A stretch of DNA of 34,329 nt, from positions 1 through 34,329 of the forward strand of contig JABEVE010000088.1 of the NCBI GenBank assembly GCA_013044035.1. Direction: 5' to 3'. The position numbers and the translations under genes were made by a program. The notes under the pieces are model-generated. The model did not search any database, was not told the origin of the DNA, and was given only the letters and a program-made list of their open reading frames with translations. The DNA is from Burkholderiales bacterium (lineage in GTDB: Bacteria; Pseudomonadota; Gammaproteobacteria; Burkholderiales; Burkholderiaceae_C). Within the stretch, counting starts at the first letter, position 1. Each line of letters begins with the position of its first letter. Positions 5,886 through 24,264 of this stretch are shown here, in pieces.

Positions 5886-6058
5886 GTGTAGCTCAGCCAA
5901 TCCGGGTTGTTGGCCTACACCATGTCGCGGGACGCGGCTTTGATGCGCCCAAGCCCCTCACGCCCGGTTGAAAAACCGGGCGCGGTTCGATACGAGAGGG
6001 TGCTGACGCACCGGGATGGATCTCGCGGGCCTTGGCCGGCTGACCTTCCTGGTTCTCC
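5886..6058. repeat. Hairpin-rich, repeat-like intergenic element
   Basis: The 298-bp gap 5808-6105 has no gene but strong structure. Positions 5886-5891 (GTGTAG) pair with 5915-5920, and 5896-5900 (GCCAA) with 5910-5914. A perfect 9-bp stem with a GAAA loop spans 5961-5982 (CGCCCGGTT / AACCGGGCG). The minus strand from about 6057 to 5946 reads open in one frame with no good start codon, giving '..ENQEGQPAKAREIHPG..' then '..PVFQPGVRG..'. I recall such peptides as annotated hypothetical proteins at intergenic repeats in other proteobacteria, but cannot verify this. It may also serve as a terminator between the convergent pirin and YegP-type genes. Confidence 0.4.
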
Positions 6059-6105
6059 AACTGGGGAACTGGTGTTGTGAGGCTGCGGCCTGGGGCCGTT
6101 CATGC

Positions 6106-6441
6106 TCAAGCGCTGCGATCGTGCACCGGCGCTTGTTCGGCGTGGGCCTGCACGGCGGCGATGGCGGCGTCACGGGTTTCGGCTTTGGCGAACATCGGGC
6201 TGGTGCCGACGATCTGGTGGTTGCCGGCTTTCAGGTTGAAGTAGGCGCGGCCGTCGCTGGCGGTCAGGCGCTCGAAGCGCTCGGCCAGCAGGCTGTTCTT
6301 CTTCACGGAGGCGATGCCATTCTCGGCCGAGGGCTTGGACTCGTAGGACTCACTGCGCAGCAAGGTGCCGCCGTCGGCGCCCTTGAGGGAAAAGTGGAAG
6401 TGGCCTTTGTCGTTCTTGAGCAATTCGAAACTGGTTGCCAT
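6106..6441 (-). CDS. YegP-type DUF1508 protein
   Basis: A 111-residue protein made of two tandem DUF1508 units (about residues 4-50 and 56-105). Each has the pattern F-x-F-x-L-K plus a later 'S..Y.....A...I..V': 'HFHFSLKGADGGTLLRSESY' and 'RAYFNLKAGNHQIVGTSPMF'. This matches the length and arrangement of E. coli YegP (about 110). The biochemical role is unknown; it is a small soluble protein. The start at 6441 has AGGAG at 6448-6452. Upstream in the same orientation, 154 bp away, is the LexA-box radical SAM gene; a hairpin lies between, so co-transcription is uncertain. Confidence 0.88.
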   Translation of the reverse strand: MATSFELLKNDKGHFHFSLKGADGGTLLRSESYESKPSAENGIASVKKNSLLAERFERLTASDGRAYFNLKAGNHQIVGTSPMFAKAETRDAAIAAVQAHAEQAPVHDRSA

Positions 6442-6554
6442 GGGGGACTCCTGATCGTGGATTGCAAAAGGCCCGTGCTTGCAGGCGCGCGCCATGTCGA
6501 GAGGGCGCCGGCTCCCCAGGCCCTGGCTGATGGTAGGCGCTGGGCATGACGAAA

Positions 6555-6571
6555 GCCATCTTTGCGATGGC
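6555..6571 (-). terminator. Hairpin after the radical SAM gene
   Basis: A 6-bp stem (GCCATC / GATGGC) with a 5-nt loop, 25 nt past the stop codon at 6596, followed on the minus strand by TTTCGTC. The T-run is short, so this is a weak intrinsic terminator at best. Confidence 0.35.
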
Positions 6572-6595
6572 CATGCTCTGGCCGCATGCTCAGGG

Positions 6596-7795
6596 CTAGA
6601 ACAGCGTGCCCTGCCGCGCATCCAGGGCCGACGGGACTACGGGTGGACGAAAGGCGCTGGCGTCCAAGGCCGTGAGCCCCGGCTGATTCAGACCGGCGCG
6701 CGCGCGGGCTTTGGCAACGCGCTGGCGAATGAGTTCGGCCCAGGGGCCGGTGCCGTGCATGCACTGATCAAAGCGGGCGTCGTAGTCGCGTGCAGGACGG
6801 CCGTGTTGCGCGACGCGTTGCTCAGCGACGATGCCGTGCAAATCCTGCACCCGCGCCATGACCCGCGCGGCGCGCTCGGGGGCATGCACTTGCAACCATT
6901 GCCGAAACAACGGCGCCACTTCCCAGGGCAGGCGCAGCACGGTGTGGTGGATGCTGCGCGCGCCGGCATCGGCCGCGGCCTGGACGATGGCTTCGATGTC
7001 GCCATCGTTGATGAAGGGAATGATGGGCGCCACGTTCACTCCCACCGGCACACCGGCCGCCGCCAGGCGCCGCACCGTCTCCAGCCGACGGTGCGGCGCC
7101 GGGGCCCGGGGTTCGAGCGTGCGGGCGAGTTGCGCGTCGAGCGTGGTGATGCTCACGCTCACCCAGGCGCGGCCGGCGTGTGCGGCAGGGGCGATGAGGT
7201 CGAGGTCGCGCAGCACGCCGGCGGACTTGGTGATGAGGGCGTAGGGGTGGGCGCAGTCGCCTAGCACCTGCAGCACGGCGCGGGTGATGCGCAGCTCGCG
7301 CTCGATCGGCTGGTAGGCGTCGGTGATGGAGCCGATGGCAATGCAACTGGCCTGATGGCCGGGCCGTGCCAGTTCGCGCTGCAGCACGCTGGCAGCGTTG
7401 ATTTTCGCCACCAGCCGGGTTTCGAAATCCAGCCCGGGGGAGAGGTCCAGATAGGCGTGCGTCGGCCGCGCGTAGCAGTAGATGCAGCCATGCTCGCAGC
7501 CGCGGTAAGGGTTGAGCGAGAGGGTGAAGGGAATGTCGGGCGAACTGTTGCGCGTGAGCAGGGAGCGTGCCTGCTCGTGGGTCACCGTGGTGGCGGGCGG
7601 CGGCGCCTCGCCGCGGGCCAGCGCGGCTTCATCGAGCGTGTCCCAGCCGTCGTCGAACGCCTCGCGTGTGCTGGGCTCGAAGCGGTGGGGTATGGCCACC
7701 GCCGTGCCGCGCCCCTTGAGCGCGTCGCGGCCCGCATCGGGCGTCGCCGCGGCGACGCCCGTGCGGTGGATGGGGATGATTCTTGGGGGTATCAC
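6596..7795 (-). CDS. PA0069-family radical SAM protein (spore photoproduct lyase-like)
   Basis: A 399-residue protein counted from GTG at 7795. The radical SAM cluster is CxxxCxxC at residues 100, 104 and 107 within 'NPYRGCEHGCIYCYARP'. The N-terminal 'KGRGTAVAIPHRFEP' and the downstream 'ALITKSAGVLRDLDLI', 'VSVSITTLD' and 'LEPRAPAPHRRLETVRRLAAAGVPVGV' blocks are characteristic of PA0069/Rv2578c-type proteins. They resemble the SplB group, but the substrate is not established. The GTG start is chosen because conservation begins shortly after it and because a LexA-type box ends 13 nt upstream (7808). The frame is open to 7939, but that part would overlap the promoter. No strong Shine-Dalgarno is seen. 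It is likely a single damage-inducible unit. Confidence 0.85.
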   Translation of the reverse strand: MIPPRIIPIHRTGVAAATPDAGRDALKGRGTAVAIPHRFEPSTREAFDDGWDTLDEAALARGEAPPPATTVTHEQARSLLTRNSSPDIPFTLSLNPYRGCEHGCIYCYARPTHAYLDLSPGLDFETRLVAKINAASVLQRELARPGHQASCIAIGSITDAYQPIERELRITRAVLQVLGDCAHPYALITKSAGVLRDLDLIAPAAHAGRAWVSVSITTLDAQLARTLEPRAPAPHRRLETVRRLAAAGVPVGVNVAPIIPFINDGDIEAIVQAAADAGARSIHHTVLRLPWEVAPLFRQWLQVHAPERAARVMARVQDLHGIVAEQRVAQHGRPARDYDARFDQCMHGTGPWAELIRQRVAKARARAGLNQPGLTALDASAFRPPVVPSALDARQGTLF

Positions 7796-7807
7796 GGCGT
7801 CTGAAGA

Positions 7808-7823
7808 CTGTATAAAAACACAG
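7808..7823 (-). promoter_or_regulatory. LexA-type SOS box
   Basis: The 16-mer CTGTATAAAAACACAG fits the beta/gammaproteobacterial LexA operator CTGT-N8-ACAG with an A/T-rich centre and perfect outer half-sites. It lies directly upstream of the radical SAM start (GTG at 7795) and covers the expected transcription start, a position suited to repression. Confidence 0.75.
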
Positions 7824-7850
7824 TTTATTCGGGGGCCTGATCGACCGCAA
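7822..7850 (-). promoter_or_regulatory. Sigma70-type promoter of the radical SAM gene
   Basis: On the minus strand, TTGCGG (complement of 7845-7850) is separated by 17 bp from TAAACT (complement of 7822-7827). The start site would fall near 7815, inside the LexA-type box. Confidence 0.5.
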
Positions 7851-7943
7851 GGACAGCTCAAATCGAGGCCGATGCAGCCATCGTCACGACACCGCTCCAG
7901 GCTTGCCCCCAAAGCCGACGCCCTGGCCGAAAGGCGCATGACG

Positions 7944-7960
7944 CAGTGGCATGGCCACTG
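7944..7960 (-). terminator. Hairpin downstream of azlD
   Basis: A perfect 7-bp inverted repeat (CAGTGGC / GCCACTG) with a 3-nt loop, 37 nt beyond the azlD stop. It has no T-run. It would separate the azlCD unit from the radical SAM promoter. Confidence 0.35.
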
Positions 7961-7996
7961 GGGAGCAGTGCTGGCGCCAGAGCATGCTGGCGTCGA

Positions 7997-8329
7997 TCAA
8001 GCCGGGCCGAAGCCCCAGCGCCACAGCAAATACACCGCCAGCCCCCCGGCGATGGCGGTCAGCAGACGGCGCGTGCCCAGCACCAGCAAGGCGCTGGCCA
8101 GGGCCCCGGCCAGCCAGGGGTTGCGCCAGCTCAGGTCCCAATGCTGGCCGTCGGGCAGCAGCACCATGGGAGCGACGATGGCCGTGAGCACCGCCACCGG
8201 CACATGGCGCAGGGCCTGCCGTACACGCGGTGAAAACCGCAGCCGGCTGCCCAGCCCGAACAGGGCGTAGCGAATGACGAAGGTGACGGCCGCCATGCCG
8301 CCGATCACAACCCAGAGCGTGGCGCTCAT
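7997..8329 (-). CDS. azlD: AzlD-family branched-chain amino acid export subunit
   Basis: A 110-residue membrane protein with about four hydrophobic segments. It has the AzlD pattern: '[51 protein letters not shown]', then a [28 protein letters not shown] tail. AzlC and AzlD together form an exporter of branched-chain amino acids or analogues; AzlD is the small subunit. The ATG overlaps the azlC stop as ATGA (8326-8329), which fixes the start and implies translational coupling. The residue count is normal for the family. Confidence 0.93.
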
Positions 8330-22701: not shown

Positions 22702-24264
22702 ATGAGCCCAGACACCCTCATCGCCCAGGATCAGGCACGCACCCCCATGCGCAGCAACGGCCTGTTCGCGCGGACAGAGGACGAGCAGGACTTCCGGCGC
22801 AGTGAATGGGACTACATCGGCGCACGCCTGCGCAGCCTGGGTCTTTGGGGCACGGCCGCCTTCATGCTGGCCTCGATCACCGACTTCACCGTGCTCGGCG
22901 CCTCACCCGTCTACTTTGGCCTGCTGGCGCTGCGCTGCGTCGTGCTTGGGCTGGGCGCGCGCCTGGTGCAACTCGGCCGCAAGCCCGAGGCGCCCGCGCT
23001 GCAATGCCTGTCGCACGCGCTCTTGGAGTTCGAGGTCGCCATCCTCGTCATTTTCCTGCTGGTGGTGGCGGCCTATGGCGGTGCGGTGGACTATCACGCC
23101 ATCACCGCGCTGCTACTGACCATCGCGCTGTACGCCTATGCGCCGGCCCTGAGCGCCGCCTCGCTCTGGCTTGGTCCGGCGTTCACCCTGGTCTTCCTGC
23201 TGGAAGCGGTGTTCGTGCTGCATGCCCCGGCCAAGGTCGGCAGCATCGTCGCCGTGCTGTTGGTGTTCGCCAATTTCGCCGGCTGGCAGGTGGCCACACA
23301 GCTCAACCGCATCCAGCGTCTGAACTGGCTGGACCGCCAGCGCCTGCGCCGTGAAGTGATGGAGCGCCTGGCCGCCGAGCAGCGCGCCCTGGCTGGCGAA
23401 GAGAACCTGCGACGCCTGTTCGACACCACGCCGGTGCCCATGGTGCTGGTGCACCAGCCCGACGGCCAGGTGCTGCGCTACAACCCGGCGGCCGAGAGCC
23501 TGCTCGACCCGGCCGGCAAGGTGCGCGCCGGGCTCGTTCCCTTCAGCGCCGATTTCTATGCCGATCCGTCACAGTCCGCGCAACTGCGCGCGACGCTGCT
23601 GCGCGAGGGTCGCATCGGACCGCTGGACGTGCAGCTCAAGACCACCGACGGCAGGCCGGTGGAGGTGATGTTGTCGTCGGCGCTGATGCAATTCCACGGC
23701 GAGCCGGCCACCATCTCCAGCCTGGTGGAAATCACCGCGCGCAAGAATTACGAGCGCGAGTTGCAGCGCCTGGCGCACGCCGATCCGCTGACCGGGCTGC
23801 TCAACCGGCGCGGCTTCTTCGGCCACGCGGCGGCGCTGTTGCAAACCGCACGATCGGGCGGCGAGACCATGGCCGTGCTGCTGATGGACGCCGACCACTT
23901 CAAGCGCGTCAATGACACCCACGGCCACGCGGTTGGCGATGAAGCGCTGCGGCAGATCGGTGGCGTCATCCAGGCGCAGTTGCGCGATGCCGATGCCCTG
24001 GCCCGCGTCGGCGGTGAGGAATTCGCCTGCCTGCTGCCCAACACGCCGCTGCAGCAAGCCATGGACATCGCCGAGCGCATCCGCGACGCCATCGCCGCGC
24101 ATGCCCTGCACTGCGCCGGCGTGCGCGTTCAGGTGAGCTTGACGGTCGGGGTGAGCCTGGTCGGCGCCAGCGAGCAGCGTATCGACGAAGCGCTCAGTCG
24201 CGCCGATCGGGCCATGTATGCGGCCAAACAGGCCGGACGCAACCGGGTCGGCCAGATGGTCTGA
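22702..24264 (+). CDS. Membrane diguanylate cyclase, tandem paralogue 1
   Basis: A 520-residue protein. An N-terminal membrane module of about six helices (residues 47-195) contains 'SLWLGPAFTL' and 'FANFAGWQVATQ', then a charged linker (200-235), a PAS-like domain (236-350), and a GGDEF domain (352-520) with GGEEF (437-441), 'LLMDADHFKRVND' and I-site RDAD (428-431). It is predicted active. The membrane module does not match MASE1, CHASE or other named sensors that I recognise. The next gene has the same architecture and sequence motifs 51 bp downstream, so the pair arose by duplication and is probably one transcript. Confidence 0.93.
   Translation: MSPDTLIAQDQARTPMRSNGLFARTEDEQDFRRSEWDYIGARLRSLGLWGTAAFMLASITDFTVLGASPVYFGLLALRCVVLGLGARLVQLGRKPEAPALQCLSHALLEFEVAILVIFLLVVAAYGGAVDYHAITALLLTIALYAYAPALSAASLWLGPAFTLVFLLEAVFVLHAPAKVGSIVAVLLVFANFAGWQVATQLNRIQRLNWLDRQRLRREVMERLAAEQRALAGEENLRRLFDTTPVPMVLVHQPDGQVLRYNPAAESLLDPAGKVRAGLVPFSADFYADPSQSAQLRATLLREGRIGPLDVQLKTTDGRPVEVMLSSALMQFHGEPATISSLVEITARKNYERELQRLAHADPLTGLLNRRGFFGHAAALLQTARSGGETMAVLLMDADHFKRVNDTHGHAVGDEALRQIGGVIQAQLRDADALARVGGEEFACLLPNTPLQQAMDIAERIRDAIAAHALHCAGVRVQVSLTVGVSLVGASEQRIDEALSRADRAMYAAKQAGRNRVGQMV

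Follow-up and report, generated by a model that had tools for sequence, protein, structure and literature searches.

Reports from several phyla describe SOS-controlled radical SAM genes called SplB, which have continued to bear the label of photolyase. In the parts of these papers available to us, splB of multi-chromosome alpha- and beta-proteobacteria is predicted to be under SOS control (PMC3323433), a LexA-regulated radical SAM protein is reported in Gram-positive bacteria and Balneolaeota (PMC7739468) and a LexA-regulated SplB in Bacteroidetes (PMC8565304), and the LexA table of Streptomyces venezuelae includes a radical SAM protein (PMC9380542). The available text of other papers describes SplB-like proteins linked to ImuB-C (PMC3765255) and archaeal SplB-like genes that adjoin nreB, a relative of the PCNA-binding NreA, with a substrate called unknown there (PMC4929162); PA0069 is named in another as an insertion site (PMC7485682). 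That such genes ("splB", COG1533) answer to the SOS response has largely been published already. We further take PA0069 to belong to the LexA regulon of P. aeruginosa, and Rv2578c to that of mycobacteria.

Here we describe a PA0069-family locus in a 34,329-nt stretch of DNA from a Burkholderiales bacterium, which we call the window. What it likely adds is a tail resembling those that bind the sliding clamp, and an argument against the chemistry of spore photoproduct lyase (SPL).

Results

A predicted LexA operator precedes a PA0069-family radical SAM gene

The 16-mer CTGTATAAAAACACAG has both its CTGT and ACAG half-sites intact and lies 12 bp upstream of the likely GTG start, at 7795, of a PA0069-family radical SAM gene (Table 1). 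This start is supported because the orthologue from the same genus, L082, begins within one codon of it (MPTRIIPI compared with VIPPRIIPI in the window). The product scores 421.4 bits against the PA0069-family model NF033668 (cut-off 360) and 50.9 bits against PF04055 (cut-off 29.5); against NF038135, the model of the Rv2578c family, it reaches 231.5 bits, which is below the cut-off of 430. Its AlphaFold2 model has a mean pLDDT of 79.3 and a pTM of 0.79, with residues 1-45 and the last ten poorly defined. The operator and the gene behind it, both claimed in the preliminary description, are thus present, the former as a near-consensus CTGT-N8-ACAG. The -35/-10 promoter said to overlap the operator was not recovered, as a scan of 5900-8100 for sigma-70 promoters found none. 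Nor did we find support for the suggestion that the downstream YegP-type gene may form part of the same unit: in a tblastn search with the window YegP, which as a single-query search could miss divergent YegP, only the window matched among 221 loci, with 0 copies in the other 220 (flanks mostly 1.5-3 kb). Two other identities considered for the radical SAM gene were rejected. Matches to defence systems in PADLOC were weak only (E values of 1.2e-4 and 2.1e-4), and the partial matches in 9 phage records never covered 80% of the protein.

Table 1. Positions of the features discussed, in window coordinates
Feature	Position	Strand	Remarks
LexA-type operator CTGTATAAAAACACAG	7808..7823		On the gene's strand reads CTGTGTTTTTATACAG
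PA0069-family radical SAM gene	6596..7795	-	GTG start (likely), TAG stop, 399 aa; NF033668 and PF04055 matches
CxxxCxxC motif (C100, C104, C107)	7475..7498	-	Cys at all three places in 220/220 aligned orthologues; expected [4Fe-4S] cluster holder
C-terminal pentapeptide QGTLF, beta-clamp-binding-like motif	6599..6613	-	Gly at position 2; Q395 and L398 conserved
YegP-type DUF1508 gene	6106..6441	-	PF07411, 113.8 bits; neighbour only, 154 bp from PA0069-family gene

The window holds two exact copies of CTGT-N8-ACAG. If one mismatch is tolerated the number rises to 7, against a mean of 10.2 in 100 shuffles, which is not above chance. When three mismatches or fewer are tolerated, the AT-rich consensus CTGTATATATATACAG matches one site in the window and none in 100 shuffles, and a box model trained on promoters from 15 other genomes scores the operator at 25.2 (threshold 6.0). 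The second exact copy, the palindromic CTGTTCGCGCGGACAG at 22762-22777, has a GC-rich core, starts 60 bp into the ORF 22702-24264 and probably arose by chance.

The same box type in the rest of the genome

Across the genome, palindromic CTGT-N8-ACAG sites number 25, compared with 14 when the pattern is reversed. The genome encodes a canonical LexA and RecA, and both genes follow this type of box: boxes stand 93 bp before the start codon used for lexA, 63 bp before that of recA and 54 bp before that of a Y-family polymerase gene. We examined 20 of the 23 palindromic sites outside the window with their flanks, and scanned 8 adjoining proteins for family matches. Two more of these boxes precede genes of other kinds. 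The LexA-like box CTGTATGCACATACAG (L006, 132-147; C87) precedes an integron integrase gene by 14 bp, and CTGTCCAAAAACACAG (L002, 2001-2016; C25) is 155 bp before mraZ, the first gene of a division and cell-wall cluster, where SOS control of cell division is possible. The other three scanned proteins were a transposase, a dihydroorotate dehydrogenase with the box at or inside its gene start, and one protein that matched no family; many of the other 12 box stretches have GC-rich cores.

LexA-type boxes before orthologous genes

We scanned orthologous promoters for the LexA motif, as the preliminary description had suggested. The loci are not a random sample: most beta loci come from one genome family, related sequences are counted separately, the first 30 alpha loci were those with the highest scores, and the named loci comprise the best 80 of 596. 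Outside the named loci, groups were inferred from relatedness to the window genome (beta, same family or order; gamma, same class; alpha, same phylum), and xanthomonads from the resemblance of promoter and family to the named loci. In a first set of 141 loci including the window, exact CTGT-N8-ACAG was found within 300 bp upstream in 44/48 loci of the same family, 2/5 of the same order and 10/21 gamma loci, and in 1/3 loci of the genus itself, that is, in the window only. Decoys with another spacing or order gave 0-4 matches per group, and elsewhere in the loci the density of matching boxes was below 0.01 per 300 bp. The box model, trained on the promoters L052-L066 and applied to the 206 remaining loci with a threshold corresponding to 0.015 expected matches per promoter, was positive for 38/41 beta loci, 10/14 non-xanthomonad gamma loci and 55/60 named loci (from the best 80 of 596, with alphas and xanthomonads removed). 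The beta positives include the window and its two relatives from the same genus, whose boxes are degenerate yet score 12.2 and 16.8. In four promoters (L082, L165, L188 and L239) a symmetric CTGG-N8-CCAG replaces CTGT-N8-ACAG, with both half-sites changed alike, perhaps reflecting a shifted LexA specificity.

The CTGT model was positive for only 3 of 64 alpha loci, and for none of the nine named alpha loci (from the best 80 of 596). Exact copies of the alpha-type box GTTC-N7-GTTC lie within 300 bp upstream in 58 of the 64 alpha-type promoters (one of the 58, L151, is doubtful), and GTTC-N7-GTTC is also present in 7 of the 9 named alpha loci (again from the best 80 of 596). Decoys with another spacing or order matched 0-4 of the 64, and the remaining locus DNA held one site in 239,022 bp. 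Save where the cited papers state it, the assignment of box motifs to LexA groups is our assumption.

Xanthomonads were negative with the CTGT model (0/18). One xanthomonad-type locus, L108, carries a TTAG-N6-TACTA box; among seven genomes of this type, LexA is above the cut-off in six and any of the box types searched for is present in one. By eye, CTGAGAC was seen before the start in the box-less xanthomonad-type loci L113, L115, L125, L126, L202 and L205, and likewise in L210, L213, L218, L221 and L228. As an alternative xanthomonad-type operator we considered a longer form of this motif, TCGC-N2-5-GCTGAGAC, which occurs at 1-3 places per genome in five genomes and therefore does not mark a broad regulon. 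All of 14 genomes that lack a clear alpha or CTGT box (one of them, G353, has a single doubtful alpha-type match) have a LexA-like match, which is above the cut-off in 9/14, compared with 14/14 hand-picked box-bearing genomes. Given these 9/14 box-less and 6/7 xanthomonad-type genomes, the lack of a canonical LexA explains missing boxes only partly.

The actinobacterial sample consists of four Rv2578c-type copies on plasmid records. Exact GAAC-N4-GTTC stands just upstream of the Streptomyces and Nonomuraea copies and is the sole exact site of each locus. The boxes of the other two were first spotted by eye: that of Arthrobacter has one mismatch, and its 6.8-kb locus holds four such sites, while Tsukamurella has a GAAC-N5-GTTC variant, the best match of the N4 scan there having 3 mismatches. 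Two of the four actinobacterial boxes are thus clear, and the four relatives back LexA control more thinly. Taken on comparative grounds, the prediction that 7808-7823 is a LexA operator and that LexA controls the gene is close to certain; this control, and through it the conserved SOS-induced role in DNA damage proposed in the preliminary description, is well supported by the promoters of beta-, gamma- and alpha-type orthologues.

A C-terminal tail that resembles clamp-binding motifs

The published C-terminal clamp consensus is Q-L-x-L-F (PMC4549789), and Gly at position 2 lowers the affinity of clamp peptides, less than losing the Gln does (PMC11139829), according to the available text of both papers. 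The PA0069-family protein of the window ends in a related pentapeptide, a feature absent from the preliminary description, and its genome encodes DnaN. QxxL[F/L/M] occurs within the last 12 residues of 204/220 orthologues and at the very end of 189/220, whereas only 3 of 1714 control frames have it within the last 12 (other stop-to-stop frames of the loci, 200 aa or longer, many of them not real genes). A strict form modelled on the available text of PMC11139829 (Q, aliphatic, any residue, L/M, F/L, in five or six residues) was found in 114/220 orthologues and 2/1714 control frames, and a relaxed form in 210/220 and 14/1714. By group, the strict form is present in 56/63 alpha, 10/21 gamma, 11/56 beta and 37/80 named proteins (the best 80 of 596). 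With Gly at position 2, as in many beta proteins, the QGTLF of the window falls outside the strict form, and we predict that it is a weak form of the beta-clamp-binding-like motif. In the alignment, column 395 is Gln in 219/219 rows with a residue and column 398 is Leu in 215/219; MAFFT can favour a terminal match in such counts, which leaves the pattern counts unaffected. Q and L are fixed, while the linker before Q395 is variable and much of it nearly free.

Sixteen tails failed the first search. Fourteen of the 15 inspected align a related form, for example QMALDL, QLEMF or QLSLF followed by ten residues; the fifteenth, L101, is split over two frames in its record and was counted as a miss. 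The sixteenth, L222, ends in QMRLI. Some family members have a six-residue form or up to 25 residues past the motif. The four actinobacterial relatives end in QLTLL, QEPLF, QESLF and QLRLL, which fit the loose form in 4/4 and the strict form in 2/4. The tail was absent from all six wider COG1533 relatives on plasmids that were inspected (Runella, two from Paenibacillus, Staphylococcus, Priestia and the archaeon Natribaculum) and from all seven of the SPL-like proteins L246-L248 and the relatives L249-L252.

Three plasmid-borne members of the wider family are of separate interest. A Gemmatirosa relative (L244, Gemmatimonadota) ends in QLSLGI, which resembles the six-residue clamp form. On a Runella plasmid (L253), a SplB-like radical SAM gene overlaps the UvrD-type helicase gene downstream of it. 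On a Staphylococcus saprophyticus plasmid (L256, NZ_CP022057.1), the gene of a distant, tail-less SplB-like protein stands beside genes for a 2OG-Fe(II) oxygenase, a DNA glycosylase, an Ada-type protein and a methylated-DNA methyltransferase, a neighbourhood that suggests alkylation damage as a lead for the wider SplB-like family.

Relation to spore photoproduct lyase

The preliminary description called the protein SplB-like, which holds at the level of the fold and fails at that of sequence and of a fourth conserved Cys. In a Foldseek search against the PDB, the first six matches were entries of one SPL (best E value 9.4e-8); the match is modest, with 15-18% identity (18% at the best match), TM scores of 0.40-0.51 and rmsd values of 5.7-9.4. 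Searches of the PDB by sequence gave nothing with the single protein, and weak matches only with a profile. The lyase model TIGR04070 scores the protein at 22 bits (cut-off 400), and this lyase had no match in the organism's own genome at an E value of 1e-30.

SPL depends on C141 (in B. subtilis) and Y99, as stated in the available part of PMC3742179. In an alignment of 220 unique orthologues, no fourth conserved Cys was found beyond the CxxxCxxC trio, the best other column having Cys in 94/220. By position, the residue after the third Cys corresponds to SPL Y99 and is Phe in 138/220 and Tyr in 82/220, while the residue before it, at SPL Y97, is Tyr in 220/220. A profile-profile comparison with three SPL-like proteins aligned residues 186-299 only and did not place C141; the evidence that we use for a different chemistry is that no fourth Cys is conserved. 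Since a fourth Cys is not conserved, the name photolyase probably implies the wrong chemistry, and together with the Phe at the Y99 position in most orthologues this implies that the Cys/Tyr reaction of SPL is probably not run.

Discussion

The presence of a LexA switch in most of the relatives examined, together with a tail like a clamp hook, implies that the product is probably a DNA-repair enzyme working at the replication machinery. The explanation that we favour and consider probable is that of an SOS-induced, clamp-tethered radical SAM enzyme whose target in DNA is some lesion distinct from spore photoproduct. LexA bound at 7808-7823 would block transcription of the PA0069-family gene, as the box and its conservation suggest. 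Upon DNA damage, RecA would trigger the self-cleavage of LexA, and the gene would be induced alongside those for LexA, RecA and the Y-family polymerase. Its product would be a radical SAM enzyme with an SPL-like core, whose CxxxCxxC cluster would generate a 5'-deoxyadenosyl radical to act on a damaged DNA nucleotide. The QxxL[F/L] tail, judged by its conservation as a short linear motif, would dock the enzyme on the sliding clamp DnaN and so bring it to replicating or gapped DNA. On the target one can only speculate: an alkylated base or some other kind of crosslink, for example, might be the lesion that is acted on.

Three other readings were weighed against this one. A LexA-regulated true SPL-type repair enzyme, which would use the SPL mechanism to reverse either spore photoproduct or a thymine dimer related to it, is the published reading that the name splB conveys. 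The closest solved fold is indeed that of SPL, and SOS-regulated genes are called SplB in the available text of PMC3323433 and PMC8565304; yet the missing fourth Cys, the frequent Phe at the Y99 position and a score far short of the lyase cut-off make this reading quite unlikely. That LexA has nothing to do with the gene in this organism, its box being non-functional or a product of chance, is highly improbable. The failure of the sigma-70 scan, the chance-level count of loose half-site matches in the window and the degenerate boxes of the two closest relatives would fit it, but the operator far exceeds the threshold of the box model, both relatives pass it too, and the box is conserved across groups that use different operators.

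The tail allows a reading that leaves LexA control and a DNA substrate in place, for conserved C-termini can have roles other than clamp binding. The pentapeptide could serve the radical SAM barrel as an intramolecular lid or as part of its fold instead of being a clamp hook, as is suggested by the many tails that end exactly at the motif and by a short helix at 392-398 in the AlphaFold model. However, model confidence drops to an average of 53 over the last block, the linker varies while Q and L are fixed, several members have a six-residue form or a long extension after the motif, and the pattern fits the clamp motif as published in the available parts of PMC11139829 and PMC4549789. We regard the lid as unlikely, though worth bearing in mind, and retain the clamp-tethered enzyme as the favoured explanation.

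More tentatively, PA0069 and Rv2578c might represent a widespread and overlooked class of SOS-induced, clamp-hooked radical SAM repair enzymes that act at or behind the fork on a non-SPL lesion by a non-SPL radical chemistry. If so, a radical SAM DNA-repair enzyme recruited by the sliding clamp would be encoded in 205/397 sampled genomes of the phylum, the number in which the PA0069 family is above its cut-off. A clamp-binding-like tail and LexA-like boxes in two phyla would direct the search for the substrate to lesions in replicating DNA.

Comparison with described systems

The radical SAM cluster motif and the overall fold are shared with SPL (SplB, TIGR04070; PDB 4FHC-4FHG). Unlike SPL, the PA0069 family has no fourth conserved Cys, carries F or Y at the relay tyrosine and has the clamp-like tail in addition, and the window protein does not belong to TIGR04070 at the sequence level. 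The splB gene (COG1533) treated in the available text of PMC3323433 resembles the present one in being SplB-like and in having predicted LexA sites of two markedly different, class-specific types. It is read there as a photolyase, and the available text mentions no clamp tail. We infer that it is the same gene as the PA0069 family, a match made with neither the PA0069 name nor locus tags. Like Pol II and Pol IV (QL(S/D)LF) in the available text of PMC11139829, the PA0069 family bears a C-terminal short linear motif; no radical SAM enzyme is among the clamp-binding proteins named there, and "radical SAM" and "photolyase" do not appear in that main text. In the literature covered, which is incomplete and in part available only as excerpts, we found no published description of a clamp tail for the radical SAM/SplB family. 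The closest relatives are the PA0069 family (NF033668) itself and its sister, the Rv2578c family (NF038135), and examined members of both have QxxL[F/L] tails and LexA-like boxes. The two models give no function, and the regulation and the tail are what the present analysis adds to them.
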